Positions 25,401-47,938 of a DNA stretch of 64,000 nt are shown here, piece after piece. The notes beneath the pieces were generated by a model. That model worked only from the letters and a program-made list of their open reading frames with translations, had not been told where the DNA came from and made no database searches. Position 1 is the first letter of the stretch; each line of letters opens with the position of its first letter. The stretch is from Millisia brevis NBRC 105863 (lineage in GTDB: Bacteria; Actinomycetota; Actinomycetes; Mycobacteriales; Mycobacteriaceae), in assembly GCF_001552615.1 (NCBI RefSeq), contig NZ_BCRN01000006.1, positions 124,001 to 188,000 of the forward strand, read 5' to 3'. The position numbers and the translations under genes are program-made.

Positions 25401-25623
25401 GGTGGGGGCGATCCTGGATCGGGAACCGGAGGGCGGCGACCGATACACCTCGTGGCGGGACCGTCGCGGCGAGCAGGTCGATCGCTTCACCCGGCTGATC
25501 GCGGAACTGCGCCGCGACGGCACGATCGACATCGCCCGCGCCTGCACGGTCAACGCCGAATTGGATCTGCTCGTGCGCGCCACTCGCGCATCGGGGGATC
25601 TCGGGAAGATGATCTCAGGGTGA
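22402..25623 (+). CDS. gdh: Large NAD-dependent glutamate dehydrogenase
   Basis: 1073 residues, the shorter class of large NAD-glutamate dehydrogenases. The catalytic core contains GGLRFSDRPEDYRTEVLGLM followed by KTQTVKNSPIVPVGAKGAF (substrate lysines), and the nucleotide fold includes VVGIGDMSGDVFGNGMLLS. It oxidises glutamate to 2-oxoglutarate and ammonia with NAD, a catabolic role. The ATG at 22402 with AAGGAT upstream is preferred to the open extension. It overlaps the next gene, a PucR regulator, by GTGA, implying coupled expression. The context (amino acid permease, aminotransferase operon) fits growth on amino acids as carbon and nitrogen source. Confidence 0.9.
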   Translation: MGIPATDTRSSAASAEVNETVERLLSARRMGPALPAILFTSPIEATEYVEGVALWPGASPLLADIATQFEHFGLRVADRNLLTLDADGGLSDAHPRATPPTLHRFTFAATGLADPSRLTLVSDAFTAHFARGFEIDHFATLIIGAGLTWREVTLVRAATRFVRQAGPGWSERYVIETLQRHRAYTRALVDYFAARFDPAADPDAEAPARRNVQAHIETARTLDEDRILRSLESFVTACVRTNWYQRIADGTPDGAVKDYAAFKLDSAALSVGGPVVPHREIYVYSADVEGIHARSGEVARGGLRFSDRPEDYRTEVLGLMKTQTVKNSPIVPVGAKGAFVRKNPEVPAPEAYSIFVRGMLDVIDNLVDGRIVEPDNTVRREEPDTYLVVAADKGTASFSDLANSIATERGYWLGDAFASGGSTGYDHKAMAITARGAWVSVRRHLESLGIDAAVDPFTVVGIGDMSGDVFGNGMLLSPAIRLVAAFDHRHIFIDPHPPAERAFAERRRLFGLRGSSWDDYDRDAISAGGGVWPRSAKRIPLSPEAAAALGITATELSAPDLIKAIQTAPVDLFWNGGIGTYVKSSREVHGDAADPVNDAVRVDAADLRCRIVGEGGNLGFTQRARIEYALGGGLINADFIDNAAGVASSDLEVNLKIALDVAVRAGDIDVPERNALLASAQEDVARAVLNNSESQSLAIDLASAQAPRLLARHQRLIGNLEDRNGISRAGEVLPDGKELSLRAQAGVGLSRPEIAVLLAQSKNVVRDELLASSVPEDAAFAGALPAYFPEGLRAVLGDRIRTHRLAREIIATTIADDLINHVGPGLIYQLEERLGVGSADVARAYAVVRGVFDVDAMWRYARDRDDLSAAERRALLSRLQHFIERTASWLLRRRPGPIDIPSEIARYRPAALEAAADPAAAVDRIAAGSGGPVEVLDHTETAQRYGSTPATAAEVYAQTGRGLGLDWLAGRIEEHTPIGWWDGMAISTVRDALADNHHALVGAILDREPEGGDRYTSWRDRRGEQVDRFTRLIAELRRDGTIDIARACTVNAELDLLVRATRASGDLGKMISG

Positions 25624-26840
25624 CCGATTCGGTGAACGTCGACTTCACATCGCAGGTGCAGTCGATCGTCGATACCCTCTCGCAGGCGCTCGACCGTGCC
25701 GTGCTCCTGGACGACGAGGAATTGACCTCGATCACGCACAGCCGTCAGCTGGGCCGCCTCGACGACCTGCGGCTCTACAGCGTGCTGCAGCGGGGCACCC
25801 TGCCCGAGGCGAAGTCGCGACTCCTGGGCTTCGGCATCCGGACCGCGACCGAGCCGGTGCGGATGCCGGCGGTCCCCGAGCACGGGCAGATGGCGCGCTG
25901 GTGCGTTCCGATCCGCTCGGCGGAACGGCGGCTCGGCTACCTGTGGATCCTCGATCCCGACGATTCGTTGTCCGAGGAGGGCCGCGGGGTCGCCGTGCGG
26001 GCGGGCGCCGACCTGGCGGCCCTGCTCGATCGTCACAACGGCGAGCTGCGGGCCGAGGAGTTGTCCAAACAGGCTCTGCTGGAACGGTTGCTGAGCGACA
26101 GCGATCGGGAACGCGTCCAGCTGGAGTTGCAGGCACGCGGGATGGCGCAGCCGGACAGCCGATTCAGCGTCTTCACGTTCGATTCGGGGGCGTCGGACGT
26201 CGCCGCCCTCGACGGGGCGATCGCTCTGCGACTGCGCCTCGCCGCCCTCGACCGTTCGCACCAGTGGTTCCCCGCGACGGTCACCCCGACGGTCATCCTG
26301 GCGGTCTCCCGGCCCGACGCGTCGATCGACACCGAGGCGACGATCGATGCGGTGCTGGAGGGGATCGAGGCGAGCTACGGGATCCGACCCGCCGTCGGGT
26401 GGTCCGGCGATCGCTATCCGGGACGTCAGGTGACGCTGGGGGTGCAGCGGGCCCGGCTGGCTTTGACGCTCGGGCAGATCGGCGTCTCCGACGCCCGGGT
26501 GACCGTGTGGACGCGGCTGGGTTCCTGGCAGACGTTGGCGCTGCTCGCCGAGTCGTACGACCGCAATCACCTGCGAGAGATGGTGCATCCGGGCATCATC
26601 GGCCTGATCGAACAGGGCCGCGACGACCTGATCCACACCCTCGAGGTGTACCTGGCCAACGGCGGTGACGCCCGGCAGGCGGCGACCGATCTGTACCTGC
26701 ACCGGTCGACGATGTATTACCGGTTGGAGAAGCTTACCCGGGCAATAGGAGAGGACCTCGGCGACGGGGAAATTCGGTTCGCTTTGACTCTCGGTATCCG
26801 ACTGGCTCAGCTCGCGGGGTTGTATCGACCGATGCGGTGA
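25620..26840 (+). CDS. PucR/CdaR-type regulator coupled to glutamate dehydrogenase
   Basis: 406 residues. The GTG start at 25620 overlaps the gdh stop by 4 nt. It lacks the N-terminal PucR domain of its neighbours; instead about 20-140 looks like a GAF-like sensory region (RWCVPIRSAERRLGYLWILD), then a CdaR-type central domain, then a C-terminal HTH_30 (AATDLYLHRSTMYYRLEKLT). It probably senses a metabolite of amino acid breakdown and controls gdh or the permease genes that follow. Confidence 0.86.
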   Translation: MTDSVNVDFTSQVQSIVDTLSQALDRAVLLDDEELTSITHSRQLGRLDDLRLYSVLQRGTLPEAKSRLLGFGIRTATEPVRMPAVPEHGQMARWCVPIRSAERRLGYLWILDPDDSLSEEGRGVAVRAGADLAALLDRHNGELRAEELSKQALLERLLSDSDRERVQLELQARGMAQPDSRFSVFTFDSGASDVAALDGAIALRLRLAALDRSHQWFPATVTPTVILAVSRPDASIDTEATIDAVLEGIEASYGIRPAVGWSGDRYPGRQVTLGVQRARLALTLGQIGVSDARVTVWTRLGSWQTLALLAESYDRNHLREMVHPGIIGLIEQGRDDLIHTLEVYLANGGDARQAATDLYLHRSTMYYRLEKLTRAIGEDLGDGEIRFALTLGIRLAQLAGLYRPMR

Positions 26841-29882: not shown

Positions 29883-31445
29883 GTGAGGATGGCGCTGACC
29901 GTTCGCAGGCTCGTTCGGAATCCCGATCTGGGCCTGACCGTGGTGGCCGGCCACGCGGGCGCCGATCGGGTGATCGAGTGGGCGCACGCGATCGAACTCG
30001 CGGACCCGGCGCCGTGGATCACCGGCGGCGAGTTGGTGATGACCACCGGTCTGAACATCGGCTCCTCCGACGAGGAGCAGTTCGACTACGTGTCGCGGCT
30101 CGTCGACGCCAATGCCGTCGCCCTCGCCTTCGATACCGGGACGACCTTCGAGCACGTGCCCGATGCGGTGCTCGCCGCGGGCGACGCACTGGGGCTGCCG
30201 ATCATCGCCGTACCCCAACGCACCCCGTTCATCGCGATCACCCACGCGGTGATCGACGAGTTGACCGCCGATCGGGTCCGGGTGGTGCAGGGCATCGTCG
30301 ACCAACAGGAGAAGTTGGCTCGCGCGACCCTCCGAGGCGGAATCCCCCTACTGACGGCGACATTGGGGCGGGCGCTGACCGCGACGGTCGTGCTGATCGA
30401 TGCGGAGGGCGAATCGCTCGCGGCCCACGGCACCGATGTGCCGCGGGTGATCGAGCAGGCCCGCTCCGTCGCCCGCGCGGCCGGATCCACCTCGGGGCGA
30501 GGGCGATCGACCAGTTCGGTCGCCTCCGACCGGGCCGGCTCCTGTGTCGTGCAGAGCGTCTCGGTGGCCGGGGACATCCGCGGATATCTGGCGATCGGCT
30601 CGGCGGGGCCGCTCGCGACCGAGGACCGGCTGCTGGTCGCACACACCGTGTCGCTGATCTCGATCGAGATGGGCAAGCCGGCGAAGGTGGCCGACGCCGA
30701 ACAACGGTTGCGCACGGTGGTGACCGAGGCCCTCCTCGCAATCGGAGCCGACCTCGATACCGGCTTGCTGCGCTATTTCGGCTTCACCGAGGAGTCGACG
30801 GTTGTCGCGATCGTGATGACCAATGTGGGGGCGCTGCTGCCGGCGCAGCGCGAGGCGGCCGCCGCATTGGCCGCGCAGTCGGTCCCCTACCTGATGGCCC
30901 CCACGCACGGCGATCTCGCCGTCCTCGTCGGCGGTGAGCGCGATGCCGCCTGGGTCGCCGCCCTGGTGCGCACCCTGTCGATCGCCCTGGGTCGACCCGT
31001 TCGAGCGGGGCGGGGTGGCCCGGTCGGCGTCGTCGACGCGGCGACCGGTGTCCGGCAGGCCCGCGCGGCCGCCCGGATCGGGGCCTCGTCATCCTCGGCG
31101 GTCAGCGACTTCGCCGATGCCGGAACGTTTTCGCTGCTGCTGGACGGCCGGTCCGTCGAGGAACTGTCCGTACTGGCGCGCAAGGTCCTCGGTCCGCTGA
31201 TCGACCACGACGCGGCGACCCCGTCCTCCCCCGACCTGTTGACCGCCGTGCGGGTGTGGCTGCTGCACAACACTCAGATCGAAAGCGCCGCCGCCGAGTT
31301 GGGCGTCCACCGCCATACGATGCGCAGCCGGATCGCCAAGGCCGCGGATGTTCTCGACCGCGACCTCGACACCGCGCAGGCCCGCGCCGAACTCTGGATC
31401 GCCGTCAAGGCCCACGAACTCGCCGAAACCCTCCGCCGCCCCTGA
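29883..31445 (+). CDS. PucR-family transcriptional regulator (permease/glutarate region)
   Basis: 520 residues: N-terminal PucR domain (about 5-130, GGELVMTTGLNIG and the IIAVPQRTPFIAI strand), central CdaR-like domain, and C-terminal HTH_30 (AAAELGVHRHTMRSRIAKAA). Start is GTG 29883, or ATG 29889 two codons later. It follows the permease-USP pair and converges on the glutaryl-CoA operon, so it may regulate amino acid import, the glutarate operon or both. Confidence 0.86.
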   Translation: MRMALTVRRLVRNPDLGLTVVAGHAGADRVIEWAHAIELADPAPWITGGELVMTTGLNIGSSDEEQFDYVSRLVDANAVALAFDTGTTFEHVPDAVLAAGDALGLPIIAVPQRTPFIAITHAVIDELTADRVRVVQGIVDQQEKLARATLRGGIPLLTATLGRALTATVVLIDAEGESLAAHGTDVPRVIEQARSVARAAGSTSGRGRSTSSVASDRAGSCVVQSVSVAGDIRGYLAIGSAGPLATEDRLLVAHTVSLISIEMGKPAKVADAEQRLRTVVTEALLAIGADLDTGLLRYFGFTEESTVVAIVMTNVGALLPAQREAAAALAAQSVPYLMAPTHGDLAVLVGGERDAAWVAALVRTLSIALGRPVRAGRGGPVGVVDAATGVRQARAAARIGASSSSAVSDFADAGTFSLLLDGRSVEELSVLARKVLGPLIDHDAATPSSPDLLTAVRVWLLHNTQIESAAAELGVHRHTMRSRIAKAADVLDRDLDTAQARAELWIAVKAHELAETLRRP

Positions 31446-35820: not shown

Positions 35821-37179
35821 TCAGAGGGCGGCGAAGGCGGCGCGCAGGATCTCGAAACCCTCGTCGAGCAGGTCGTCGGAGATCGACAGCGGCGGCAGGA
35901 AGCGCAGCACATTGCCGAAGGTGCCGGCGGTGAGCGTCAACAGCCCATGCTGTACGCAGTCGCGGTTGATCGCGGCGACGGCGTCGCGGTTCGGGGTGTC
36001 GGAATCCGGTTCGACCAGTTCGACGGCGACCATCGCGCCGCGACCCCGGATCTCCCCGACGATCGGATGCTCGGCGGCGATCTCGCGCAGATGCCGGGTC
36101 ATGATGTCGCCGATCACCCGGGCCCGCTCGAGCAGGTTGTCCTGCTCGATGGTCTCGAAGACCCCGAGCGCCGCCTCGCAGGCTGCCGGGTTTCCGCTGT
36201 AGGTGCCGCCGATACCGCCGGCGTGCGCGGCGTCCATGATGTCCGCGCGGCCGGTGACCGCGGCCAGCGGAAGTCCGCCGGCGAGCCCCTTGGCGGTGAC
36301 GACCAGGTCGGGCACGAGGCCCTCGTGTTCGCTCGCGAACCAGGCCCCCGTGCGGCCGATACCGGCCTGGACCTCGTCGGCGACGAAGACGATGCCGCGC
36401 TCCCGGCAGAAGTCGGCGACGCGGGCCAGGAAGCCCGGCGCGGGCACGATGAAGCCGCCCTCACCCTGGATCGGTTCGACGATGACGCAGGCGACCACGC
36501 CGGCGCCGATCTGCACGTCGATCAGATCCCGGAAGGCGGTGAACGCCTCGTCGGCGGCGTTCTCGGGGCCGCTCGGCCACCGGTACGGGTAGGCCATCGG
36601 CGCCCGGTAGACCTCGGGTGCGAAGGGACCGAAGCCCGCCTTGTAGGGCGCGGCCTTCGCGGTCATCGACATCGTCAGCAGGCTGCGGCCGTGGAAGGCG
36701 TTGTCGAAGGTGACCACCGCCGGTCGGCCGGTCGCCGCCCGGGCGTACTTGACCGCGTTCTCGACGGCCTCGCTGCCGGTGTTGAACAGTGCGGTGCGCT
36801 TCTCGTGGTCGCCGGGGGTGAGGCGATTGAGGGTTTCGGCCACCTCGACATAGGACTCGTACGGGGTGGCGAGGAAACAGGTGTGCGTGAACTTCCCGAG
36901 CTGCTCGCGAGCCCGTTCGACCACCCGCGGAGCGGAGTTGCCGACGGTGGTCACCGCGATGCCGCTGCCGAAGTCGATGAAGGAGTTGCCGTCGACGTCG
37001 AGCAGCACACCGCCGCCGGCGGCCGCGGCGTAGACGCCGACGGCACTGGTCAGTCCGGTCGGCAACGCGGCGCCGCGGCGCTGCGCGATCTCGCGGGAGC
37101 GCGGTCCGGGGACCTCGGTGATCAGACGGCGGACCTGCTCGAGCTGGGGTCCGCCGACAGGAGCGTGTACTGCGGTCAT
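35821..37179 (-). CDS. gabT: Omega-aminotransferase (4-aminobutyrate/5-aminovalerate type)
   Basis: 452 residues, class III aminotransferase. PLP lysine K297 (TAKGLAGGLP), the aspartate D268 (VADEVQAGIGRTG) and TGSEAVENAVKYARAATGR are standard for GabT. It transfers the terminal amino group of GABA or 5-aminovalerate to 2-oxoglutarate. It is the first gene of the operon with gcdH, semialdehyde dehydrogenase and CoA-transferase, which favours 5-aminovalerate (lysine breakdown) as the physiological substrate. Start ATG 37179 has GAGGTGA upstream. Confidence 0.9.
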   Translation of the reverse strand: MTAVHAPVGGPQLEQVRRLITEVPGPRSREIAQRRGAALPTGLTSAVGVYAAAAGGGVLLDVDGNSFIDFGSGIAVTTVGNSAPRVVERAREQLGKFTHTCFLATPYESYVEVAETLNRLTPGDHEKRTALFNTGSEAVENAVKYARAATGRPAVVTFDNAFHGRSLLTMSMTAKAAPYKAGFGPFAPEVYRAPMAYPYRWPSGPENAADEAFTAFRDLIDVQIGAGVVACVIVEPIQGEGGFIVPAPGFLARVADFCRERGIVFVADEVQAGIGRTGAWFASEHEGLVPDLVVTAKGLAGGLPLAAVTGRADIMDAAHAGGIGGTYSGNPAACEAALGVFETIEQDNLLERARVIGDIMTRHLREIAAEHPIVGEIRGRGAMVAVELVEPDSDTPNRDAVAAINRDCVQHGLLTLTAGTFGNVLRFLPPLSISDDLLDEGFEILRAAFAAL

Positions 37180-37319
37180 GTCATCACCTCACGGTCGGTT
37201 ACCGATGAACCCTAGGAGCGGCCGCCGGCCTTCGATATCGCCCCGACGGACAAGGTGAACGACGACGTTCGCCGTGGTGTCGACGCCCCGCCCGGCGGGT
37301 TCATGGCACACTCGCGCCG

Positions 37320-38426
37320 GTGACACCGTCGATACAGCTGGGTCTCGTCGCCGGAGACGGGATCGGTCCGGAGATCGTTCCCGCCGCCGCCCGGGTCCTC
37401 GAGGCCGCCGCCACCGACCTGTTCACCATCGACTGGCATCCGCTGCCGATCGGGCACGAGGCGATCGAGCGGTACGGCGTCGCGGTGCCGGCCGAGACGC
37501 TCGCTGCGCTCGACCGCCTGGACGGGTGGATTCTCGGACCGCACGACAGCGCTTCGTATCCGGCGCAGCTGGCCGCGGCGGTGCCGCCGGCGGGGGCGAT
37601 CCGCAAACACTTCGATCTGTTCGCCAATATCCGGCCGGCGCGGGCGTGGCCCGGCACCGATCCGATCGCCCCGCGCGCCGATCTGGTGATCGTCCGGGAG
37701 AACACCGAGGGCCTCTACGCGGACCGCAATATGTTCGCCGGTTCCGGCGAGTTCATGCCGACACCGGACGTCGCCCTCGCGGTCGGCGTCATCACCCGCG
37801 CCGGGAGCGAGCGCATCGCGCGGGAGGCGTTCCGGCTGGCCGAGCAACGCCGCCGACACGTGACGATCGTGCACAAGGCGAACGTCCTGACGATGACGAC
37901 CGGGCTGTTCCGGGACGTCTGCCTCGAGGTGGCCGGCGACTATCCGGACGTCACCGTGTCCGAGCAGTTCGTCGACGCCGCCGCGGCGCATCTGGTACGC
38001 GACGCGTCGATCTTCGACGTGATCGTCACCGAGAACCTCTTCGGCGACATCCTGTCCGACCTCGCCGCGGAGTTGGCCGGCTCACTGGGGATCGCCGCCT
38101 CGCTGAACTGCTCGGCGACCCGGGCGATGGCCCAGGCCGCACACGGCGCCGCGCCGGACATCGCGGGTACCGATACCGCCAACCCGACAGCGCTGATCCT
38201 GTCGGTGGCGATGCTGCTGCGTTGGTTGCAGGGCCGCCACACCTCCCCCGTCTTCGGCGAAGCGGCGGGGCGCACCGAGGACGCGATCGGCGCGGTGATC
38301 GCCTCCCCGATCCGCACGCGCGACCTCGGCGGCACCGCCTCGACCACCGCCTTCACCGATGCGGTGATCGAGCGGATCATCGGAACGAGTAGCCGCCGTC
38401 GGGAAAGAGGGTCGACCCGGTCGTGA
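37320..38426 (+). CDS. Isocitrate/isopropylmalate-type decarboxylating dehydrogenase
   Basis: 368 residues. GDGIGPEI at the N-terminus, RENTEGLYADRN near 125, and VTENLFGDILSDLAAELAG in the C-terminal half are hallmarks of the beta-decarboxylating dehydrogenase family (isocitrate, isopropylmalate, tartrate/malate). Close similarity to one member cannot be settled by eye; being outside a leucine operon argues for a tartrate/malate- or homoisocitrate-like enzyme. Starts at GTG 37320. Its 3' end overlaps the convergent SDR gene by 50 bp. Confidence 0.82.
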   Translation: MTPSIQLGLVAGDGIGPEIVPAAARVLEAAATDLFTIDWHPLPIGHEAIERYGVAVPAETLAALDRLDGWILGPHDSASYPAQLAAAVPPAGAIRKHFDLFANIRPARAWPGTDPIAPRADLVIVRENTEGLYADRNMFAGSGEFMPTPDVALAVGVITRAGSERIAREAFRLAEQRRRHVTIVHKANVLTMTTGLFRDVCLEVAGDYPDVTVSEQFVDAAAAHLVRDASIFDVIVTENLFGDILSDLAAELAGSLGIAASLNCSATRAMAQAAHGAAPDIAGTDTANPTALILSVAMLLRWLQGRHTSPVFGEAAGRTEDAIGAVIASPIRTRDLGGTASTTAFTDAVIERIIGTSSRRRERGSTRS

Positions 38427-39114
38427 CGGTGTTGAGCAGCAGGTAGACCACCGCCTGGGCGACCTCGGGTTCGGTTCCCATCCGGCCGATCGTCGAGATC
38501 GAGGTGTAGAAGTCGAAGGCCGCGGCCCGAACCGCCGGATCGCGCTGGTCCCACAGGTGCCCGTCGACGGTGCCGGGCGCCACCGCGTTGACCCGAATCG
38601 GGGCCAGTTCGAAGGCCAACCCGCGCGCCAAGCCCTCGATGGCGGCGTTGGCCGCGGTATAGGCCGGAGCGTTCCCGGCGGGGCGGATGCTGGCCGCACC
38701 CGACATCAGCACGATCGACGCGTCGGCCGCGAGCTTCGGCAGGGCGGACTTCACCACCCGGTACTGCCCCCAGAACTTCGACTGGAAGGGAGTCGCGGCC
38801 TGCTCGACCGACAAGTCCGCGATCGACCCGGTGACGTAGTCGGCCGCGGTCGTGAAAATGCCGTGCACCGTCTCGATCCCCGCGAAGAAGGTGTCGATGG
38901 TGTCCTGGTCCGAGGTATCGACCACCGCCCAGCGTGCGGCGTCACCGAGTTCGGATGCGGCCGCCTCCAGCGTCGCAGCGGTGCGGCCACCCAGTACGAC
39001 GTTGCCGCCTGCGGCCGTCACCAGTCGGGCGACCGCCAGTCCGATGCCGGTCCCACCCCCGATCAGGACGACGGTGCGGTCGGCGAAGGCGGTTTCGGAC
39101 AGAAACGAGGTCAT
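38377..39114 (-). CDS. Short-chain dehydrogenase lacking the catalytic lysine
   Basis: 245 residues. The nucleotide loop GGGTGIGLAVARL and late AVAPGTVDG and FPDGGYS motifs show an SDR fold. The active site has S138/S142 and Y152 in PAYTAANAA, but the usual lysine four residues after the tyrosine is asparagine (N156). It may be a weakened or non-standard enzyme. ATG 39114 is used; a GTG four codons earlier is also possible. It overlaps the convergent dehydrogenase gene tail to tail by 50 bp. Confidence 0.82.
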   Translation of the reverse strand: MTSFLSETAFADRTVVLIGGGTGIGLAVARLVTAAGGNVVLGGRTAATLEAAASELGDAARWAVVDTSDQDTIDTFFAGIETVHGIFTTAADYVTGSIADLSVEQAATPFQSKFWGQYRVVKSALPKLAADASIVLMSGAASIRPAGNAPAYTAANAAIEGLARGLAFELAPIRVNAVAPGTVDGHLWDQRDPAVRAAAFDFYTSISTIGRMGTEPEVAQAVVYLLLNTVTTGSTLFPDGGYSFR

Positions 39115-39275
39115 GGACCCGAACACTAGAAGCCCGGCCCGACGTCCTCGATGTGCATCCCGCCGGATTGGAGGTCCGAATCAGGGCACTGCGCCCGGTG
39201 AGCCGTGGCCGAAGGATCCATAGGCTGACCGCAGACGCTTGACCGGCGGGCGGCCAACAGCAGAAAGCGGCGCAT

Positions 39276-40841
39276 ATGAGAATCGGAATCGACGTCGGCG
39301 GCACCAATACCGACGCAGTGCTGATGCGCGGTGATCGGGTGGTCGCCGCCTGCAAGCGGTCGACCGCTCCCGACGTCACCCGCGGCATTCTCGACGCGAT
39401 CTCCGCGCTGGAGTCGGCCCATCCGTTCGGGGCGCAGGACATCGACGCGATCATGGTGGGCACCACCCACTTCATCAACGCGTTGATCGAACGGCGTGGG
39501 CTGGCGCCGACCGCCGCCGTCCGGCTCGGTCTCCCGGCGACCAGTTCGCTTCCACCGTTTGTCGGTTGGCCCACCGAGTTGGTGGAGGCGATCGACGGCC
39601 AGGGCTACCTCGCCCATGGCGGATACGAATTCGATGGCTCCGCCCTCGCCGACCTCGATCCCGACGAACTGCACCGCATCGGCGACGACATCGCGGCACG
39701 CGGCATCCGGTCGATCGCGATCTCGAGCGTCTTCGCACCGGTGAACGCGGACGCCGAGATAGCGGCCGCCGACATCTTCGCCGCGCACCTCGGTCCCACC
39801 GTGGCGATCTCGCTGTCCCACGAGATCGGCCGAATCGGGCTGTTGGAACGCGAGAACGCCACGATCATCAACGCCGCCCTGCGCGATATCGCCGACGCGA
39901 TCCTCGCCGACCTGTCCGAATCCCTGCATCGCCGCGGGTGGGACGCCCCGCTCTATCTGAGCCAGAACGACGGCACTCTGATGAACCTCGAACAGGCGCG
40001 CCGGTACCCGGTGGCGACGTTCGCCTCCGGGCCGACCAATTCGATGCGCGGGGCGGCGTTGTTGTCGGGGATGCAGACCTGCGCCGTCGTCGACATCGGC
40101 GGCACCACCAGCGATATCGGTCTGCTCGAGGGCGGATTCCCGCGCGAGTCGCGGGCCGAGGTCCACGTCGCGGGCGTGCGCACCAACTTTCGGATGCCCG
40201 ACGTGATCTCCCTGGGGATCGGAGGCGGTTCGCGCATCCGCGACGACGGCCGACGCATCGGCCCGGACTCGGTCGGCTACCGGCTGCCGTCCGAGGCGCG
40301 CGTCTTCGGAGGAACCGCACTGACCGCCACCGACATCGCGGTCGCCGCCGGTCGCGGCGTCGTCGGCGACCCGAACCTGGTGGCGCATCTGGACGGGTCG
40401 GTCGTTCGCGATGCTCTGGCCCGGATCGACGAGGAGATCGCCCGCGGTGTCGATCGCATGCGGGTGTCGGCCGATCCGTTGGCGGTGGTCGCCGTCGGTG
40501 GTGGTTCGATCCTGCTGCCGGAGAGCCTCCCCGGTTTCGGGACCATCCTGCGACCGGACAACTACGCGGTCGCCAACGCCGTCGGCGCGGCCATTGCCAA
40601 CGTCGGCGGCGAGGTCGACCGCATGTACTCCACCGATCGGCTCTCCCGCGATCGGATCGTCGAGCAGGCCCGTCAGGAGGCGATCAATCGCGCCGTCCTC
40701 GCCGGGGCGACCGCCGATTCGGTCCGCATCGTCGAATTCGACGAACTACCCATCCCCTATCTACCGGGCAACGCGGTGCGCGTTCGCGTGAAAGCGGTCG
40801 GCGTCCTCGATCTCGGCAAGGAGGCTCCCGCTCATGTCTGA
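39276..40841 (+). CDS. Short HyuA-like hydantoinase/oxoprolinase-family ATPase
   Basis: 521 residues. MRIGIDVGGTNTDAVLM and VVDIGGTTSDIGLLEGG are the two phosphate loops of the HyuA fold. It is about 165 residues shorter than the HyuA at 18471 and lacks that protein's C-terminal extension, a form typically found next to DUF917 proteins rather than HyuB. It overlaps the first DUF917 gene by 8 bp. It probably supplies ATP-driven activation of a cyclic amide or related compound; the substrate is unknown. Confidence 0.85.
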   Translation: MRIGIDVGGTNTDAVLMRGDRVVAACKRSTAPDVTRGILDAISALESAHPFGAQDIDAIMVGTTHFINALIERRGLAPTAAVRLGLPATSSLPPFVGWPTELVEAIDGQGYLAHGGYEFDGSALADLDPDELHRIGDDIAARGIRSIAISSVFAPVNADAEIAAADIFAAHLGPTVAISLSHEIGRIGLLERENATIINAALRDIADAILADLSESLHRRGWDAPLYLSQNDGTLMNLEQARRYPVATFASGPTNSMRGAALLSGMQTCAVVDIGGTTSDIGLLEGGFPRESRAEVHVAGVRTNFRMPDVISLGIGGGSRIRDDGRRIGPDSVGYRLPSEARVFGGTALTATDIAVAAGRGVVGDPNLVAHLDGSVVRDALARIDEEIARGVDRMRVSADPLAVVAVGGGSILLPESLPGFGTILRPDNYAVANAVGAAIANVGGEVDRMYSTDRLSRDRIVEQARQEAINRAVLAGATADSVRIVEFDELPIPYLPGNAVRVRVKAVGVLDLGKEAPAHV

Positions 40842-41988
40842 CGTCACCATGACTCGACCCCGCCGGCCCTACCCCGACCACCCCCATACCCTCGCGCGCA
40901 TTTCCACCGACGACGTCGATCCGATCACCGTCGGCGCGGCCCTGCTCGGCACCGGCGGAGGCGGCGATCCCCATATCGGCGGACTGCTCGCCGCCGAGGC
41001 GATCCGCCGCCACGGCCCGGTGGAGGTGGTGGGTCTCGACGCCGTACCCGACGATGCCGTCGTGCTGCCGGTCGCCCTGATGGGCGCACCGACCGTCGTC
41101 ATCGAGAAGATCCCCTCCGCCGACCAGTTGGAGACCGCGATCGGCGCCATGGCCAGATATCTGGGCACCCCGCCGACCCATATCGCCTGCATCGAGGCCG
41201 GTGGCATCAACTCGATGCTTCCGGTGGTGGCCGCCGCCCGCCTCGGACTGCCACTGATCGACGGCGACGGGATGGGGCGGGCCTTCCCGGAGATTCAGAT
41301 GGTGCTGCCCACCCTGTCCGGCATACCCGCAGGCCCCCTGTCGTTCGCGGATGAAAAGGGCAACACCGGCATCGTCGACTCGATCGACAACAACTGGGCC
41401 GAACGCCTGACCCGCCCGCTCGCGGTGCAGATGGGCAGTTCGATCGTCATCTCCTGCTTCCCGATGTCCGGGGCCGCGGTGCGCGACAGCTTCGTGCCGG
41501 ACACGCTGTCCCTCTGCCAGGAACTGGGGATCCTCACCCGTTCGGCCGTCACCTCGCATACCGATCCGGTGACCGCCCTGGCCGATCGGCTCGGTGGTTC
41601 GATCCTGTTGACCGGCAAAGTGATCGACGTGCGGCGTGAGACCGTCGGCGGATTCGTGCGCGGCGAGGCGTTCATCGAGGGCATCGGCGACGACGACGGC
41701 AGGTGCCTGACGGTGGGGTTCCGGAACGAGAACCTGGTGGCGACCGTCGACGGCACCGTCGTGTGCACGACGCCCGACCTGATCATCCTGGTCGACGACG
41801 AGACCGGCGCGGCGATCACCACCGAGGCCGTGCGGTACGGCCAACGCGTGCGCGTGCTGTCCGGCCCGAGCGACGAGCGGTGGCATTCCGTCGCCGGGGT
41901 CGATCTGGTCGGTCCGCGCCGTTTCGGCTACGACGTCGATGTGGTTCGTTCACCGGCCCCACCGTCGACCGTCCCCGCCGTAGGCTGA
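40834..41988 (+). CDS. DUF917 (S-methyl-thiohydantoin desulfurase-like) protein A
   Basis: 384 residues. GAALLGTGGGGDPHIGGLL near 35-52 is the signature of the DUF917 N-domain, and ACIEAGGINSMLPVVAAARL with PLIDGDGMGRAFPEIQM the second conserved block. Members are tied to hydantoin/thiohydantoin metabolism by name and gene context, but few have been tested. It is translationally coupled to the HyuA-like gene (8-bp overlap) and followed 5 bp later by a second DUF917 gene. Confidence 0.85.
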   Translation: MSDVTMTRPRRPYPDHPHTLARISTDDVDPITVGAALLGTGGGGDPHIGGLLAAEAIRRHGPVEVVGLDAVPDDAVVLPVALMGAPTVVIEKIPSADQLETAIGAMARYLGTPPTHIACIEAGGINSMLPVVAAARLGLPLIDGDGMGRAFPEIQMVLPTLSGIPAGPLSFADEKGNTGIVDSIDNNWAERLTRPLAVQMGSSIVISCFPMSGAAVRDSFVPDTLSLCQELGILTRSAVTSHTDPVTALADRLGGSILLTGKVIDVRRETVGGFVRGEAFIEGIGDDDGRCLTVGFRNENLVATVDGTVVCTTPDLIILVDDETGAAITTEAVRYGQRVRVLSGPSDERWHSVAGVDLVGPRRFGYDVDVVRSPAPPSTVPAVG

Positions 41989-41993
41989 GCCGC

Positions 41994-42974
41994 GTGCCAA
42001 CCCGGTGGAGCCCGTCCGAACTCGATGAATTCGTGCTCGGACTGCGTCTGCTCGGCTCCGGCGGTGGCGGCGACCCGCACCTGCTCGCGCTGTCCACCGC
42101 GACGGTGCTGCGCGAGCATCCGGTGGACTGGGTCACCCTCGACGATCTGCCCGACGATGGATGGGTGGCGCCCGTCGCGTATATCGGCGCGACCGCCGCG
42201 ATCCGGGAAAAGCTGCCCGCCGGAACCGAGTTGGTCGCCGCCGTCGAGGCATTGACCCGGTGGACCGGCGTCCGGCCGGTGGCGGTCATGGCGGTCGAGA
42301 TGGCCGGTGTCAACGGCATCGCCGCCCTCGATACGGCCGCACGCGGCGGACTTCCGCTGCTCGACGCGGATTTCACCGGCCGGGCGCTCCCCCGCCTGGA
42401 CCAACTGTCGGTCTGCGTCGCCGGCGGCCGGCCGACGCCGTGCGTCGTCACCGAGGCCGGCGGCACCACCGTACTGGTGGACGGAACCGACGCACACCGC
42501 ACCGAAACCCTGATCCGGACGGTGATCACGGCGACCGGCGGGTGGGCCGCGCTGGCGTTCGCCTTCCAACGGGTGGCGGCTCTCGGGGCGGTGGCCATCA
42601 CCGGCACGGCGGCGCGGGCGCGGCATCTCGGGCGAGCGATGGCCACCGCCGACCACCTGCACGAGATCGACGAGGTGACCGTCCTGGCGGACGGTCGGAT
42701 CAGCGCGATCGACGCCGCCCCCGAACGGGACGGATCCCGACGGACCTCGGTGACGATCACCGATTCCGCCTCGGGTGCGGTGCTGCGGGTCGAGGCGGAC
42801 AACGAGTTCGTCCTGGTCCTGCTCGATGGTGACATCGTCTGCGCCGCACCGGATATCATCTGCCTGATCGCGGCTGCCGATCGGCAGGTACTCAGCATCG
42901 ACGATGTGCGCGCCGGAACCCGGGTATCGCTGCTGCATCTGCCGGCGCCCGCGTGGTGGCGGGCCCGCCGATGA
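41994..42974 (+). CDS. DUF917 protein B (shorter paralogue)
   Basis: 326 residues from GTG 41994, 5 bp after the first DUF917 gene. It keeps LRLLGSGGGGDPHLLAL and AVEMAGVNGIAALDTAARGG with PLLDADFTGRALP, so it is a paralogue of protein A but about 60 residues shorter at the C-terminus and clearly diverged. The pair may form a heteromer. Its stop overlaps the start of the PucR gene (ATGA), so enzyme and regulator are co-translated. Confidence 0.83.
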   Translation: MPTRWSPSELDEFVLGLRLLGSGGGGDPHLLALSTATVLREHPVDWVTLDDLPDDGWVAPVAYIGATAAIREKLPAGTELVAAVEALTRWTGVRPVAVMAVEMAGVNGIAALDTAARGGLPLLDADFTGRALPRLDQLSVCVAGGRPTPCVVTEAGGTTVLVDGTDAHRTETLIRTVITATGGWAALAFAFQRVAALGAVAITGTAARARHLGRAMATADHLHEIDEVTVLADGRISAIDAAPERDGSRRTSVTITDSASGAVLRVEADNEFVLVLLDGDIVCAAPDIICLIAAADRQVLSIDDVRAGTRVSLLHLPAPAWWRARR

Positions 42975-44500
42975 CCACCGTCGCCGCGCTTCTCGGTCGT
43001 CCGGCCTTCACCTCCGTCACCGTGGTGACCGGCTCGGTGGAGGCGGTCGTCCATACCGTCGAGGCGACCCGCCTCGAGGATCTGCTGGGCGACGACGTCC
43101 CCACCCCGTCGGCCGACATCATCGTGCTGCTCGATCGCCTCGAGGCCACCAGTTGGCGTTTCGATATGGCCTTGCGCGACCTGCGGGCCGCCGGCGCGAA
43201 GGTGGTGGTGCTCGACCGGCGGGCGACGCCGGCATCGGGAACGATCCGGCTCGCCGAGCGGCTTCGGCTGACGGTTCTTGCCACCGACGATCCGTGGCGG
43301 GTGGCCGTCGCGTTGCGCGATCAACTCCTCGGCGGGCAGGTGGTGGTGGCCGAGCGGATCCGGGCGGTGACGGCCGAGATCGCACACGCCGGCCCGGATG
43401 TCGATGATGTGCTGCGCCGGGTATCGCGGATTCTCGGCCGCGAGGTATTGCTGAGCGATCGGGCCGCCCGGGTGATCGCCCCCGAGGGCGGCGTACTCGA
43501 CGATGCGGTGACCCGGTGGATCCTCGAGGGCGATACTCGCGCTCTGGCGCGGTTGACGCCGTACCCGGCCGCGGAGGTGGTGACCATTCCCGTCGACTCC
43601 GGTCTCCCCCAACCCCCGCTTCTGGTGGTGCCGGTACCGGGCGCGGCCCGCCCGGAGCTCGATCAGGTGGCCGGGGTCCTGCCGGTGGCCGCGCTGGCGG
43701 TGGGGCATCGGCTGGCGTTGCGGCGAGTCGCCGACGAGCGCATGGCCTGGCAGCGCACCAGTCTGCTCGGGGACTTCCTCAAATCGTCTCCGGCGATCCC
43801 GGATGCGATCCTGCGACGGGCCGTCGAGCGTGGATGGCCCACCGACGGTTGGCATATCGGAGTGCGGATCGTCGGTCGCGGTGAGGTCGACGCGGTGGCG
43901 CACCGCGCCGATGTTCTGGGGGCGTTGACCGACGAGGGTGTCGACTGCACGGTGGTCGAGCAGACCAATGGGTGGGCCGCCTGGACCACCTTCGGCGTGG
44001 AACCGGATGTGGCGACCACCGCGTCGACGGTGCGACGCATCCGCCGTGCGCATGCCCGCTGGGACGATTCGACGCCGACCAGTGTCGGGGTGGGGCGGGT
44101 CCATCGCGGTGCCGCCGGGATCGCGGAATCGCTCGCCGAGGCGTCCGACGCGGCCCGGCTCGCGGCGTCCCGCCCGCAGACCGCGTATTTCCTGCATGTC
44201 GACCGGCTGGGCCTGGCGCAACTGCTGCTCGCCTGGACCCAGACGGATACCTTCGTGCCCGCCGCCCGCGAACTGCTTTCCCCGTTGACCGAAGCCGGTC
44301 AGGGCCGGTTGCTCGAGACGTTGGTGACCTATCTCGATGCGCGCTCGTCGGCCACCGAGACCGCCTCGATTCTCGGGGTACACCGCAATACCGTGACCGA
44401 GCGGATCACCCGGGTGGAGCGGCTGTTGGGGGTCGATCTCGACGACGCCGAAACCCGGCTCGCGCTGCACCTGGCCTGTCGGTCGCTGCCGGCCCGGTAA
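42971..44500 (+). CDS. PucR-family transcriptional regulator (hyu cluster 2)
   Basis: 509 residues from the ATG that overlaps the DUF917-B stop. The N-terminal PucR domain is present but less typical (TVAALLGRPAFTSVTVVTGS), the central domain is CdaR-like, and the C-terminal HTH_30 is clear (TASILGVHRNTVTERITRVE). As last gene of the HyuA-like/DUF917 operon it probably autoregulates that operon and perhaps the divergent racemase/permease pair downstream. It converges on the racemase gene with only 3 bp between stops. Confidence 0.87.
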   Translation: MTTVAALLGRPAFTSVTVVTGSVEAVVHTVEATRLEDLLGDDVPTPSADIIVLLDRLEATSWRFDMALRDLRAAGAKVVVLDRRATPASGTIRLAERLRLTVLATDDPWRVAVALRDQLLGGQVVVAERIRAVTAEIAHAGPDVDDVLRRVSRILGREVLLSDRAARVIAPEGGVLDDAVTRWILEGDTRALARLTPYPAAEVVTIPVDSGLPQPPLLVVPVPGAARPELDQVAGVLPVAALAVGHRLALRRVADERMAWQRTSLLGDFLKSSPAIPDAILRRAVERGWPTDGWHIGVRIVGRGEVDAVAHRADVLGALTDEGVDCTVVEQTNGWAAWTTFGVEPDVATTASTVRRIRRAHARWDDSTPTSVGVGRVHRGAAGIAESLAEASDAARLAASRPQTAYFLHVDRLGLAQLLLAWTQTDTFVPAARELLSPLTEAGQGRLLETLVTYLDARSSATETASILGVHRNTVTERITRVERLLGVDLDDAETRLALHLACRSLPAR

Positions 44501-44503
44501 CCC

Positions 44504-45223
44504 TCAGGGCACCCGCTGCTTGTGTCGCGGACGCGGGTAGCTGCTGCGGCTCGGGGTCAGCCCGAGCCGAACGGAGGTCTCCAGCCACCCGATCGCCGCC
44601 GCGGTCGGGTCGACAATCGGCATCTCGATACCCTTGCCTCGCAGGGCATTCCGAACCGCTGACGTCACCCCGAGCATGCCGGTGCATCCCAGCACGATCA
44701 CATCGGCCTCGTCGGCCACCGCTGCGGCGGTCACCTGATCGACGAGCCGATCGACCAGCCTGTCCCGCTCGACCAGGTCGACGACAGCGAGATCGACGAC
44801 CCGGATCGAGCCGAGCCGCGCGTCGAGGCCGGACCGGCGGACCAACGACCGGAGCATCGGCACGACGGTGGGCAGCACCGTGACGATGCCGATCCGCTCC
44901 CCCAGCCCCAGGGCCAGCAGAAACGCCGGCTCGAAGCCGCCGACCACCGGCGCGTCGATGATCTCCCGGGCGGCATGGACCCCCGGGTCGGCGAAGCACG
45001 TCACGAAGACTCCGTCGACGCCGTCGGCGGCGGCACGCCGCACCTGTTCGAGGATGCCCGGGCCGGCCAACGCCTCGTCGTATTCCGATTCGATGCTGTC
45101 GGTGCCGTGCGCGATCGAGACCACATCGATCGTGGTCCCCGGGCTGACCCAGCTGCGCACCTCCGCCAGCACCGCCGGCGTGCGGGTGGTGTCGATCACC
45201 GGTCGGATCACTCGCAGGTGCAT
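44504..45223 (-). CDS. Asp/Glu/hydantoin racemase-family protein
   Basis: 239 residues. The two active-site cysteines of this family are visible: C76 in GVFVTCFADPG and C180 in IVLGCTGM. They take part in two-base proton transfer in hydantoin and aspartate/glutamate racemases. Next to HyuA-like, DUF917 and NCS1 genes it is likely to racemise a hydantoin-type ring compound so that both isomers can be used. It is divergent from the NCS1 permease and shares its control region, which holds a CRP-type box. Confidence 0.86.
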   Translation of the reverse strand: MHLRVIRPVIDTTRTPAVLAEVRSWVSPGTTIDVVSIAHGTDSIESEYDEALAGPGILEQVRRAAADGVDGVFVTCFADPGVHAAREIIDAPVVGGFEPAFLLALGLGERIGIVTVLPTVVPMLRSLVRRSGLDARLGSIRVVDLAVVDLVERDRLVDRLVDQVTAAAVADEADVIVLGCTGMLGVTSAVRNALRGKGIEMPIVDPTAAAIGWLETSVRLGLTPSRSSYPRPRHKQRVP

Positions 45224-45361
45224 GGCTTCTCCTCGGCCGGCGATCGTCTGTCGAGATGATTATCGGCCGGACCCGGGACCGGCCGACACCGGCGGTTCGC
45301 CCGGATCGGACCGCTCGACCGGGCACTTCGCACTGTGCTCGGGGAGTCGCGTCGACCCTAC

Positions 45362-45381
45362 GTTGTGAACGACATCACAAC
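45362..45381. promoter_or_regulatory. CRP/GlxR-type box TGTGA-N6-TCACA
   Basis: The site has 7-bp inverted arms GTTGTGA and TCACAAC separated by 6 bp, an exact match to the TGTGA-N6-TCACA consensus of CRP proteins, including actinobacterial GlxR/Crp. It lies in the racemase/permease divergent region, 21 bp before the permease ATG. Its position close to the start suggests repression of the permease when the box is filled, or control of the divergent racemase; direction is inference. Confidence 0.7.
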
Positions 45382-45402
45382 TACGCCACGGAGATCAGCG
45401 TC

Positions 45403-46800
45403 ATGACGGACAACGACACCACCTCCTCGGGCAGCCCCGCGGAACGGCAGCGCGACGACTACTCGCTCGGTCGCGTTCCGCCGGCGGCTCGCTATCACTG
45501 GTTCTCGATCGCCACCCAACGATTCGGCATGCTGTCCTCACTGGCCAGCTTCCTGATCGGCGCCACCCTCGGGTTCGGCATGTCGTTCCGGGATGCCGTA
45601 CTGGCCATCACCCTCGGCGCGGTCATCCTCGAGGTGCTGTCCGTCTTCACCGGGATCGCCGGGCAGCGCGAGGGACTGTCGACGTCGGTCCTCGCCCGCT
45701 GGACCGGTTTCGGCCGGTCCGGCTCGGCGCTGGTGGGCCTGGCGATCAGCATCAGCGCGATCGGCTGGTTCGGCGTCCAGAATCAGGTCTCGGCCGAGGG
45801 GCTGGCCCTGCTGGTGGGCAGCCAACCGGTGTGGTTCTGGGCGGTCGTCGCCGGTGTGGCCACCACGGTGATCGTCACCTTCGGGATCGCGTCGATGGCG
45901 TGGACGGCGTACGTGACGGTGCCGGCGTTTCTGCTGCTCGCCGGGTGGTCGATCATCTCTGAGCTGTCCCGACACAGTTTCGGGGACCTGTTGAACGCGC
46001 AGCCCGCCGGGCCGGCGTTGTCGCTGGTGCAGGGCACGACGATCGTGGCGGGCGGCTTCATCGTCGGGGCGGTGGTCACCCCCGATATGAGCCGGTACAA
46101 CCGCTCGGTCGCCGACGTCGTCAAGCAGACCTTCGTCGGAATCACGCTGGGCGAGTACGTGATCGGTCTGACCGGTGTGCTGTTGGCGTTGGCGCTGCGC
46201 ACCAATGACGTCATCGCCATCGTCACGTCGACCTCCGGGTTCATCGGCACGATCGTCATCATCGCCGCGACGTTGAAGATCAACGACTGGAACCTGTACG
46301 CGGCCTCGCTCGGGGTGGTCAACTTCGTCGACCAGGTCTTCGGTCGGCGGATCAACCGGTCGATCGCCACGGTCGTGATCGGCTTGCTGGGAACGGCTCT
46401 CGGGGCGGCGGGGATTCTCAACAGCTTCGTGAGCTTCCTGACCCTGTTGGGTGTGGTCTTCCCGCCCGTCGCCGGAATCATGGTGGCCGAGTACTTCGTG
46501 GCCCGGACCTGGCGGCGCGATCTGGAAGCGTCCGGCGCCTCGGGGGCGCTGCCCGCCTCGGCGCCGACCTGGGTGCCCGCCGGTCTGGCCGCCTGGATCA
46601 TCGCCGGGCTGTTCGGCCACTACGTCGACTGGGGAATCCCGTCGGTCAACTCGGTCCTGGTCGCGATGGCGGTCTACCTGATCGCCTCGAGGCTCGGTCT
46701 GGTGCGCGGGGTGGGTTCCTCGTCGACCCGGGCGGACGCCCCTGCGGCCCGAAAGCTGGTGGCCGGTCCGGCCGAACGGCCCGTTCCGCTCGCCGATTGA
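45403..46800 (+). CDS. NCS1-family permease (cytosine permease-like)
   Basis: 465 residues with about 12 hydrophobic segments. RYHWFSIATQRFGMLSSLASF followed by GATLGFGMSFRDAVLAI matches CodB-type NCS1 permeases, and VTPDMSRYNRS is the conserved substrate-domain motif. It imports a nucleobase, hydantoin or allantoin-like ring using an ion gradient. ATG 45403 with GGAG upstream was chosen over the longer open frame. Context makes it the importer for the HyuA-like/DUF917 pathway, parallel to the frameshifted NCS1 gene of cluster 1. Confidence 0.88.
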   Translation: MTDNDTTSSGSPAERQRDDYSLGRVPPAARYHWFSIATQRFGMLSSLASFLIGATLGFGMSFRDAVLAITLGAVILEVLSVFTGIAGQREGLSTSVLARWTGFGRSGSALVGLAISISAIGWFGVQNQVSAEGLALLVGSQPVWFWAVVAGVATTVIVTFGIASMAWTAYVTVPAFLLLAGWSIISELSRHSFGDLLNAQPAGPALSLVQGTTIVAGGFIVGAVVTPDMSRYNRSVADVVKQTFVGITLGEYVIGLTGVLLALALRTNDVIAIVTSTSGFIGTIVIIAATLKINDWNLYAASLGVVNFVDQVFGRRINRSIATVVIGLLGTALGAAGILNSFVSFLTLLGVVFPPVAGIMVAEYFVARTWRRDLEASGASGALPASAPTWVPAGLAAWIIAGLFGHYVDWGIPSVNSVLVAMAVYLIASRLGLVRGVGSSSTRADAPAARKLVAGPAERPVPLAD

Positions 46801-46805
46801 CCGCT

Positions 46806-46839
46806 CCCGATCCGGCCCGGTCCCCGAACGGGGATCGGG
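46806..46839. terminator. Hairpin between convergent NCS1 permease and thioesterase genes
   Basis: CCCGATCC (46806-46813) pairs with GGATCGGG (46832-46839); an alternative inner stem CCCC/GGGG competes. The structure fills the 39 bp between the two stops and is a likely bidirectional terminator. Confidence 0.5.
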
Positions 46840-47319
46840 TCACCGGCGTGTCCGCGCCGGGCTCGCCACCACAGTCCCCTGAGCGATCGCGCACAGGAGC
46901 GGGTCCGGCGCGTCCGGTCGATCGTTCCAGATCTCCACCCGCCCGATCGCCAACGCGTCGGTGTGCCGGACGACCGTGCCGATCGCCCGCAGTGTGCCCG
47001 CCCGCGCCGCCCGCAGATAGCTCACGTCCACACCCGACGTCAGCACCTGCGAACCGAGCCGGGTTGCGGCCGCGAAAGTCACCACGTTGTCGGCCAGATA
47101 CGCGAGGACTCCGCCGTGCACGACGCCGTACTGCTGACGGTGGCGCGGTTCGATTGTCAGCACCAGTTCCGCCGATCCGTCCCCGAATCCGGTGAGGTCG
47201 GCGCCGATCATGGTGTTGAAGGGCTGACCGGCCAGGACCGCCCGAGCGGTGTCGATGTCGAGGTCGGCGTGGTCGATATCGGCGGGGGACATCCGATCGT
47301 CCGATGATTTTAGCGACAT
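46840..47319 (-). CDS. PaaI-family (hotdog fold) thioesterase
   Basis: 159 residues. The central YGVVHGGVLAYLADNVVTFAA is the HGG-type active-site helix of the PaaI/hotdog family, which hydrolyses acyl-CoA thioesters. The C-terminal half has the matching strands (TSGVDVSYLRAARAGTLRAIG). Start ATG 47319 is taken, with ATG 47292 as alternative; ribosome signal spacing is poor for both. It is divergent from a TetR regulator 34 bp away, which probably controls it. Substrate unknown. Confidence 0.82.
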   Translation of the reverse strand: MSLKSSDDRMSPADIDHADLDIDTARAVLAGQPFNTMIGADLTGFGDGSAELVLTIEPRHRQQYGVVHGGVLAYLADNVVTFAAATRLGSQVLTSGVDVSYLRAARAGTLRAIGTVVRHTDALAIGRVEIWNDRPDAPDPLLCAIAQGTVVASPARTRR

Positions 47320-47353
47320 CTCTCCAAAATACGCTCGGCATAGGCTGCTCGCC

Positions 47354-47938
47354 ATGGGCCGACCGACTCTGCACGATCCGGATGCGTTGCTCGACGCCGC
47401 CGTGGCGATCGTGGCCCGCGACGGCGTGCGCGCCCTGACGGTCTCGGCGGTCGCCCGCGAAGCCGGGGCACCCAGTGGGTCCCTCTACAACCGCTTCCCG
47501 GATCGCGCGAGCCTGCTGGCGGCGGTCTGGATGCGTACCGTCCATCGCTTTCAGCAGGCCTATCTCGAGTTCGTGACGGACGACCCACCTGTCGAGCGAG
47601 CCGTCGAGGGTGCGCCGTGGACCGTGCGATGGTGTCGGGACAACCTCGCTCAGGCCGCCGTCCTCGAGGCCGGGCCGCAGAGTTTCGAGGAACACCACTG
47701 GCCCGACCCCGTTCGCGCCCGGTGGGCGGCGCTGCGTGCCGAACAGAACGAGAAGATCGGCACCCTGGCCCGACTGGTGGCGGACCGATCCGGGTGCACA
47801 CCGGAGGAGGCCGCCTTCGCCATGTTCGATCTGCCCTTGGCGGTGGTGCGCCCGTACCTGCAGGCCGGTCGCCGACCGCCGGAACGGGCCGGGGACCTCG
47901 CGCGGCGTCTGGCCGGTCGGATCATTCACGGTCGGTAG
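47354..47938 (+). CDS. TetR-family transcriptional regulator
   Basis: 194 residues. The N-terminal helix-turn-helix spans about 8-55 (LTVSAVAREAGAPSGSLYNRF then PDRASLLAAVW). The ligand domain is helical and has no recognisable specificity motif. It starts at ATG 47354 immediately beside the divergent thioesterase gene; an open extension upstream is antisense. It probably represses itself and the thioesterase. Confidence 0.86.
   Translation: MGRPTLHDPDALLDAAVAIVARDGVRALTVSAVAREAGAPSGSLYNRFPDRASLLAAVWMRTVHRFQQAYLEFVTDDPPVERAVEGAPWTVRWCRDNLAQAAVLEAGPQSFEEHHWPDPVRARWAALRAEQNEKIGTLARLVADRSGCTPEEAAFAMFDLPLAVVRPYLQAGRRPPERAGDLARRLAGRIIHGR

Follow-up and report, generated by a model that had tools for sequence, protein, structure and literature searches.

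A diverged DUF917 protein as a putative enzyme-derived partner of a PucR-family regulator in Millisia brevis

The stretch of Millisia brevis NBRC 105863 analysed here (64,000 nucleotides; contig NZ_BCRN01000006.1, positions 124,001 to 188,000; hereafter the window) carries at 39276-46800 a set of six genes, for a HyuA-like ATPase, two DUF917 proteins (DUF917-A and DUF917-B), a PucR-type regulator, a racemase and an NCS1 permease, all of which are open and each of which could be named by Pfam. Gene sets of the HyuA-DUF917 kind are widespread and poorly known; this one is a variant of them, and the locus is probably a catabolic set for a compound that we infer to be small, cyclic and amide- or hydantoin-like. 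Our comparison with related loci tips the balance slightly towards a reading in which DUF917-B, derived from an enzyme, would serve PucR as a sensor or co-regulator; we treat it as a PucR partner because of its linkage to PucR, the overlap of the two genes, their matched divergence, and purifying selection on B orthologs. This proposed role is the new point of the present analysis.

Linkage of B-type DUF917 proteins to PucR

DUF917 is the older name of the Pfam pair S-Me-THD_N/C (PF06032 and PF20906). Two first surveys, which also took in three named loci, were used to place the two proteins among their relatives. A class survey ran PF06032 over 394 genomes, of which 42 had a match, and 50 regions were read; an order search over 200 genomes, of which 21 had a match and from which 20 regions were read, used DUF917-B as the query and is biased towards it. 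Not all match places of the order search were read at first, and four were read later for a fresh test. As a yardstick of conservation we took the 52 residues shared by 93% or more of 78 HyuA-linked DUF917 proteins, defined among the 113 DUF917 rows of the first surveys as those with a same-strand HyuA within 2.4 kb, not directly upstream of PucR and with no motif-poor HyuA (one whose ATPase motifs are lost or changed).

Position beside PucR followed this yardstick closely. Among 111 full-length proteins (after exclusion of L083_p7559, a fragment, and L083_p7269, which is broken), 31 retained fewer than 47 of the 52 residues, and 24 of these lay directly upstream of PucR; of the remaining 80, none did. 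The seven low-retention proteins found elsewhere comprised five with a motif-poor HyuA, together with L103 and L107. The class survey alone, for which DUF917-B was not the query, gave 11 of 18 for low-retention and 0 of 48 for high-retention proteins.

With three predictions fixed beforehand, we then read 19 further regions, drawn from 11 newly added genomes of the order and the four unread places in sampled genomes; a fragment (in L116) was not counted, and the test is not fully independent, as some of the new genomes belong to already sampled genera. Low-retention DUF917 genes lay directly upstream of PucR in 16 of 18 cases and high-retention genes in 0 of 17. The remaining two low-retention genes adjoin a motif-poor HyuA with PucR in the locus, and all 17 high-retention genes stand next to an intact HyuA. 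A paralog of the pathway enzyme that is genetically tied to the regulator, as an enzyme-derived co-regulator should be, was found, with one exception, L125, taken up below.

Conserved residues kept and lost

Both Pfam domains are readily detected in each window protein, with E-values of 1.1e-54 and 5.8e-62 (185.2 and 208.8 bits) in DUF917-A and of 4.9e-44 and 1e-26 (150.6 and 93.9 bits) in DUF917-B, against cut-offs of 27 bits. AlphaFold2 models have comparable predicted local distance difference test (pLDDT) scores: DUF917-A (84.8) folds confidently like 2o3i, and DUF917-B (84.9) has the DUF917 fold. In a Foldseek search of the PDB with the two models, 2o3i was the only match at E ≤ 0.001 for either of them. 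The start of DUF917-B is uncertain, GTG 41994 being probable and 42033 the alternative.

Of the 52 residues, HyuA-linked proteins keep 48-52 (29 in one broken gene), B-type proteins 30-44, and DUF917 proteins beside a motif-poor HyuA 25-46. With residues numbered as in the window DUF917-A, in which E190 and R194 are found where the C-terminal Pfam domain begins, B-type proteins keep the polar residues of the N-terminal half (E91, E121, N126, D143, D145, R149, E190 and R194 in 18-19 of 19 proteins) and lose several in the C-terminal half (D265, Q297, T330, E331 and R338 retained in 0-4 of 19). The window DUF917-B has kept R338 and lost the other four of the latter set. In L107, a HyuA-free locus whose DUF917 is nearest the desulfurases, E91, N126, D145 and E190 are missing; because B-type proteins keep these four, their N-terminal half resembles that of HyuA-linked enzymes.

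Two observations that the original prediction had named as telling against itself did not materialise. One was rarity of the trio of HyuA and two DUF917 genes; intact HyuA, B-type DUF917 and PucR occur together in 8 of the 394 class-sample genomes (the genome of M. brevis counted). Nor has either DUF917 protein lost all conserved residues, DUF917-B keeping 34 of the 52 that are invariant in its HyuA-linked relatives.

Gene junctions, co-divergence and selection

Start-stop overlaps are common in operons. At the junctions of the first surveys, where start codons are predicted and not proven, the in-frame NTGA overlap was present at 19 of 19 B-to-PucR junctions, at 14 of 14 junctions between the two HyuA-linked DUF917 genes of relatives (clades A1 and A2), at 14 of 25 HyuA-to-DUF917 junctions, and at 0 of 12 junctions from an enzyme DUF917 to B. 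In the window, PucR has its probable start at ATG 42971, overlapping the DUF917-B stop codon (ATGA), with GTG 42953 as an alternative.

Divergence of DUF917-B likewise follows the regulator. Across 10 loci, median pairwise identity was 69.0% for HyuA, 37.8% for B and 37.0% for PucR (45 pairs each); for the same loci it was 59.4% for A1 (36 pairs), 63.5% for A2 (28 pairs) and 63.0% for the NCS1 permease (21 pairs). The rank correlation of divergence over the 45 pairs was 0.82 between B and PucR versus 0.36 between B and HyuA, and with HyuA held constant B and PucR gave a partial correlation of 0.74 across 16 loci (permutation p 0.0005).

It might be proposed that DUF917-B is simply a decaying duplicate with no role. 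The window copy gives this some colour, being the shortest of the 19 B-type domains (326 amino acids, the next having 344) and lacking the C-terminal segment with G360, P361, F364 and G365. We nevertheless hold decay to be very improbable, given that the position beside PucR is conserved and that the ratio of nonsynonymous to synonymous substitution rates (dN/dS) of B was 0.126-0.314 in six pairs of relatives, a comparison that covers the relatives' B, the window DUF917-B being without a close relative in the set. The same comparison gave 0.048-0.175 for HyuA, 0.056-0.283 for A1, 0.032-0.206 for A2 and 0.093-0.293 for PucR; because the ratio for B is low and near that of PucR, B orthologs are not decaying, and decay of B-type proteins as a class was rejected on these values.

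The original prediction had further suggested that the two DUF917 proteins form a single heteromeric enzyme. Stated fully, DUF917-A and DUF917-B would be two subunits of one HyuA-dependent enzyme, with B diverged and either non-catalytic or differently acting. The four window genes from HyuA to PucR are tightly packed in one direction, and the four residues that B shares with HyuA-linked enzymes and L107 lacks are consistent with this. L125 also favours it: the sole DUF917 match of that genome (gene ending at 7355), which keeps 46 of the 52 residues and belongs to the PucR-linked clade, directly follows an intact HyuA and precedes PucR. Against a heteromer, B and PucR lie on the strand opposite HyuA and DUF917-A in 4 of 19 loci (L038, L045, L059 and L060), the overlap is absent from all enzyme-to-B junctions, and the divergence of B tracks PucR more than HyuA. 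B-type proteins segregate with PucR and not with HyuA, and we consider the heteromer unlikely. The A1 and A2 pair of relatives fits a heteromer better than DUF917-A and DUF917-B do; no A2-type DUF917 was found in the window, and the only two DUF917 matches in the genome at E ≤ 0.001 are DUF917-A and DUF917-B. The heteromer is thus the less well supported part of the original prediction, whereas its view of the genes as a regulated set for uptake, racemisation and ring processing, with DUF917 proteins that are uncharacterised, is supported.

Points against a regulatory role

Several observations weigh against DUF917-B as a partner of PucR and should temper this interpretation. In the fresh regions the B-PucR start-stop overlap was found at 11 of 16 junctions, so that this prediction failed in part; in L069 a gene other than DUF917 stands upstream of PucR with the same 4-base overlap, and PucR follows other genes tightly too. 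The partial correlation of HyuA with PucR, given B, is still 0.57 (16 loci). The DUF917 of L125, the only one matched in its genome and adjacent to an intact HyuA, either marks an intermediate state or breaks with the proposed split. DUF917-B and DUF917-A fall in the B and A1 clades of the tree, respectively, and parsimony requires just two changes to the PucR-linked state as a minimum; related genomes are not independent, and long branches may be drawn together. The 52-residue set is moreover partly circular, being derived from proteins not linked to PucR, a concern that is eased by six HyuA-linked DUF917 proteins of other phyla, which keep 48-52 of the residues.

The remaining difficulties concern catalysis. 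E299 is retained in 19 of 19 B-type proteins and could be catalytic, and L107 itself retains just 32 of 52 residues; because this HyuA-free protein is probably an enzyme, residue loss alone is no proof of lost activity. These points bear on another alternative, that DUF917-B is an independent enzyme, HyuA-free as desulfurases may be, which makes or destroys the effector of PucR. The protein of L107, with no HyuA nearby, has a score of 258 bits for S-methyl thiohydantoin desulfurase, and E121, D143, R149 and E299 are common to it and the B-type proteins. However, the two desulfurase models, whose cut-offs are 450 and 440 bits, give DUF917-B scores of just 62 and 61, and with E91, N126, D145 and E190 kept, the site of DUF917-B looks more like that of HyuA-linked enzymes; an independent enzyme accordingly seems doubtful to us, and a PucR partner remains the reading we prefer.

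The proposed enzyme and sensing mechanism

For the other half of the operon, HyuA-type chemistry in general makes ATP-dependent ring opening by HyuA, with DUF917-A replacing HyuB, the likely reaction. The operon HyuA has intact ATPase motifs, namely the phosphate motifs DVGGTNTD and DIGGTTSD and a GGGS motif. Because these motifs are kept and DUF917-A retains 51 of the 52 residues, HyuA and DUF917-A are probably an ATP-dependent ring-opening enzyme, as judged from their sequences.

The mechanism we propose would begin with import of the ring compound by the NCS1 permease and conversion of the wrong enantiomer by the racemase. HyuA would spend ATP on activating a carbonyl of the ring, and DUF917-A, standing in for HyuB, would let water attack the activated carbon, such that the ring opens. 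DUF917-B would be an enzyme copy turned PucR partner and produced in step with PucR; it would bind the ring compound, would no longer complete the reaction, and would pass its binding state to PucR, which would switch the operon. Ligand binding by DUF917-B, its contact with PucR, the direction of control, activation by ATP and the substrate are all inferred from genome comparison.

Substrates of DUF917 proteins are mostly unknown across the class-sample genomes that carry them, and if one class of these proteins is sensory, their blanket annotation as hydantoinase or desulfurase is wrong there. Ligand binding by the sensor copies would then also provide a simple handle for finding substrates.

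A parallel module with motif-poor HyuA

A second arrangement, which we count in favour of the proposed role of DUF917-B, pairs DUF917 with a HyuA that has changed. Motif-poor HyuA made up 10 of 77 aligned copies (of 79 rows, two shorter than 250 amino acids were left out), and all 10 adjoin a diverged DUF917 in a locus that also has PucR. The order is HyuA-DUF917-PucR in L055, L056, L104, L105 and L106 and DUF917-HyuA-PucR in L080, L099 and L102, and PucR is divergent in L067 and L092. In the HyuA of L067 and L092 the first phosphate motif is kept with one residue changed; in that of L055, L104 and L106 the region of this motif is unaligned.

We put at about even the chance that Actinobacteria have at least twice turned a HyuA-DUF917 ring opener into a PucR sensing module, once as DUF917-B with PucR and once as an ATPase-dead HyuA with DUF917 and PucR. 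If so, a two-part enzyme, its ATPase part lost, would have been recruited to a transcription factor; the enzyme fold would lend PucR ligand specificity, and binding by the sensor copies could reveal what many unknown operons act on.

On plasmid pYJN5-3 of Paenarthrobacter sp. YJN-5 (L108, 7571-11488), motif-poor HyuA, DUF917 and a regulator with a helix-turn-helix (HTH) show the arrangement of this module, with a racemase and a HyuA-HyuB pair close by.

Relation to known systems

S-methyl thiohydantoin and thiohydantoin desulfurases (NF058532 and NF058529; S-Me-THD), whose chemistry we take from the NCBIfam model names, belong to the same two-domain family as DUF917-A and DUF917-B. Neither window protein reaches the cut-offs of the named desulfurases: DUF917-A scores 100 bits against NF058532, and DUF917-B was rejected as a true S-methyl thiohydantoin desulfurase on its 62 bits against the equivalog cut-off of 450. 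The operon HyuA matches the A-type subunits of HyuA/HyuB hydantoinases, 5-oxoprolinase, caprolactamase and acetophenone carboxylase with its ATPase motifs kept; the operon differs from HyuA/HyuB systems in that HyuA is short and DUF917 takes the place of HyuB. As the original prediction had noted, the operon includes no HyuB; the genome has two HyuB matches, one at window 16867-18444 and the other on another contig.

Enzyme copies serve as sensors or co-regulators of transcription factors in DhaQ-DhaS of Lactococcus and Gal3 of yeast, a parallel for which the literature searched gave no support. Both belong to protein families unrelated to DUF917, and the present case is drawn from genome comparison.

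Clusters around cyclodipeptide-oxidase-like genes hold DUF917, hydantoin racemase and AroM proteins, according to the available part of PMC11055893, which calls DUF917 uncharacterised and suggests a hydantoinase. DUF917 and a PF01177 racemase thus occur together in those clusters as in the window operon, and the available part of that article mentions no pairing of DUF917 with a regulator. Among the ten proteins scanned in 35821-47355, none matched the cyclodipeptide-oxidase-like family. Elsewhere, in the portions of text available, a PucR gene stands beside a DUF917 gene once, in a mutation table, and DUF917 is otherwise mentioned in tables or in lists of genes. Nothing to the point came from literature searches that covered DUF917, the desulfurases, hydrolases of diketopiperazines, PucR together with hydantoin, and inactive paralogs acting as co-regulators, and no report of a DUF917 protein as the partner of a regulator was found in the literature searched, from which most papers of subscription journals are absent.

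Gene layout, regulator and accessory genes

Coordinates are collected in Table 1. The gene order is SDR (-), HyuA, DUF917-A, DUF917-B and PucR (all +), racemase (-) and NCS1 permease (+). The reading frames of HyuA and DUF917-A share 8 bases, which corrects the original prediction.

Table 1 Genes of the HyuA-DUF917 locus, in window coordinates
Feature	Position	Strand	Basis
HyuA-like ATPase, 521 amino acids, short form without Hydant_A_C	39276..40841	+	Hydant_A_N PF05378 and Hydantoinase_A PF01968
DUF917-A (S-Me-THD-like), clade A1, proposed hydrolase partner of HyuA	40834..41988	+	Pfam, tree, 51/52 residues, AlphaFold2
DUF917-B, diverged paralog, proposed PucR sensor/co-regulator	41994..42974	+	Pfam, B clade, 34/52 residues, AlphaFold2
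PucR-family regulator	42971..44500	+	HTH_30 and GGDEF_2
Asp/Glu/hydantoin racemase family protein	44504..45223	-	Asp_Glu_race PF01177, 3.5e-42
NCS1-family permease, cytosine permease-like	45403..46800	+	Transp_cyt_pur PF02133
SDR-family oxidoreductase, divergent from HyuA	38377..39126	-	Pfam; relatives in related loci

The operon PucR has a C-terminal HTH_30 domain (73.5 bits) and a GGDEF-like domain (GGDEF_2, 44.4 bits); it gave no match to the N-terminal PucR domain PF07905 even at E 10. Among five B-linked PucR proteins scanned, the L005 protein with a shortened start, two gave 26.8 and 27.4 bits for PF07905, below the cut-off of 33.5, and PucR proteins of loci without B likewise match this domain weakly or not at all.

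The racemase has cysteines in VTCF and LGCT, presumably where the catalytic pair of the family is expected, and its relatives stand beside HyuA in L038 (59%) and L061 (53%). The NCS1 permease scores 179.8 bits against NF008241, below the cut-off of 326; relatives lie directly upstream of HyuA in related loci, for example L005-L007 and L039-L041. The SDR gene probably belongs to the set, because its relatives lie within the operon in L039-L041 (61% identity) and divergently beside it in L064 (67%). Where the catalytic motif of such proteins, usually YxxxK, would be expected, this one has YTAAN, so the lysine seems to be missing.

The window also holds a HyuA/HyuB pair at 16507-20501 (-), about 19 kb upstream of the operon; PF19278 is present in this other HyuA and absent from the operon HyuA. 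A PucR-family gene at 20662-22242 (+), with 66.8 bits for PF07905, is divergent beside that pair, and further PucR-family genes lie at 25620-26840 and 29889-31445.

None of the window genes scanned encodes a cysteine synthase, an OsmC protein or a D-glutamate cyclase, each of which occurs at a related locus elsewhere. In L111 (Streptomycetaceae NBC_01309, 6320-7851), OsmC and cysteine synthase genes lie between the two DUF917 genes, A and B, a possible hint at a ring substrate that contains sulfur, and in L039 a gene of the D-glutamate cyclase family (PF07286; 8789-9598, -) between SDR and DUF917-B hints at a pyroglutamate-like ring. Lastly, Haloferax mediterranei (L110, 4129-9720) has three DUF917 genes around one HyuA, with 48-52 of the 52 residues kept, and the regulator downstream is of the Lrp type, in place of PucR.

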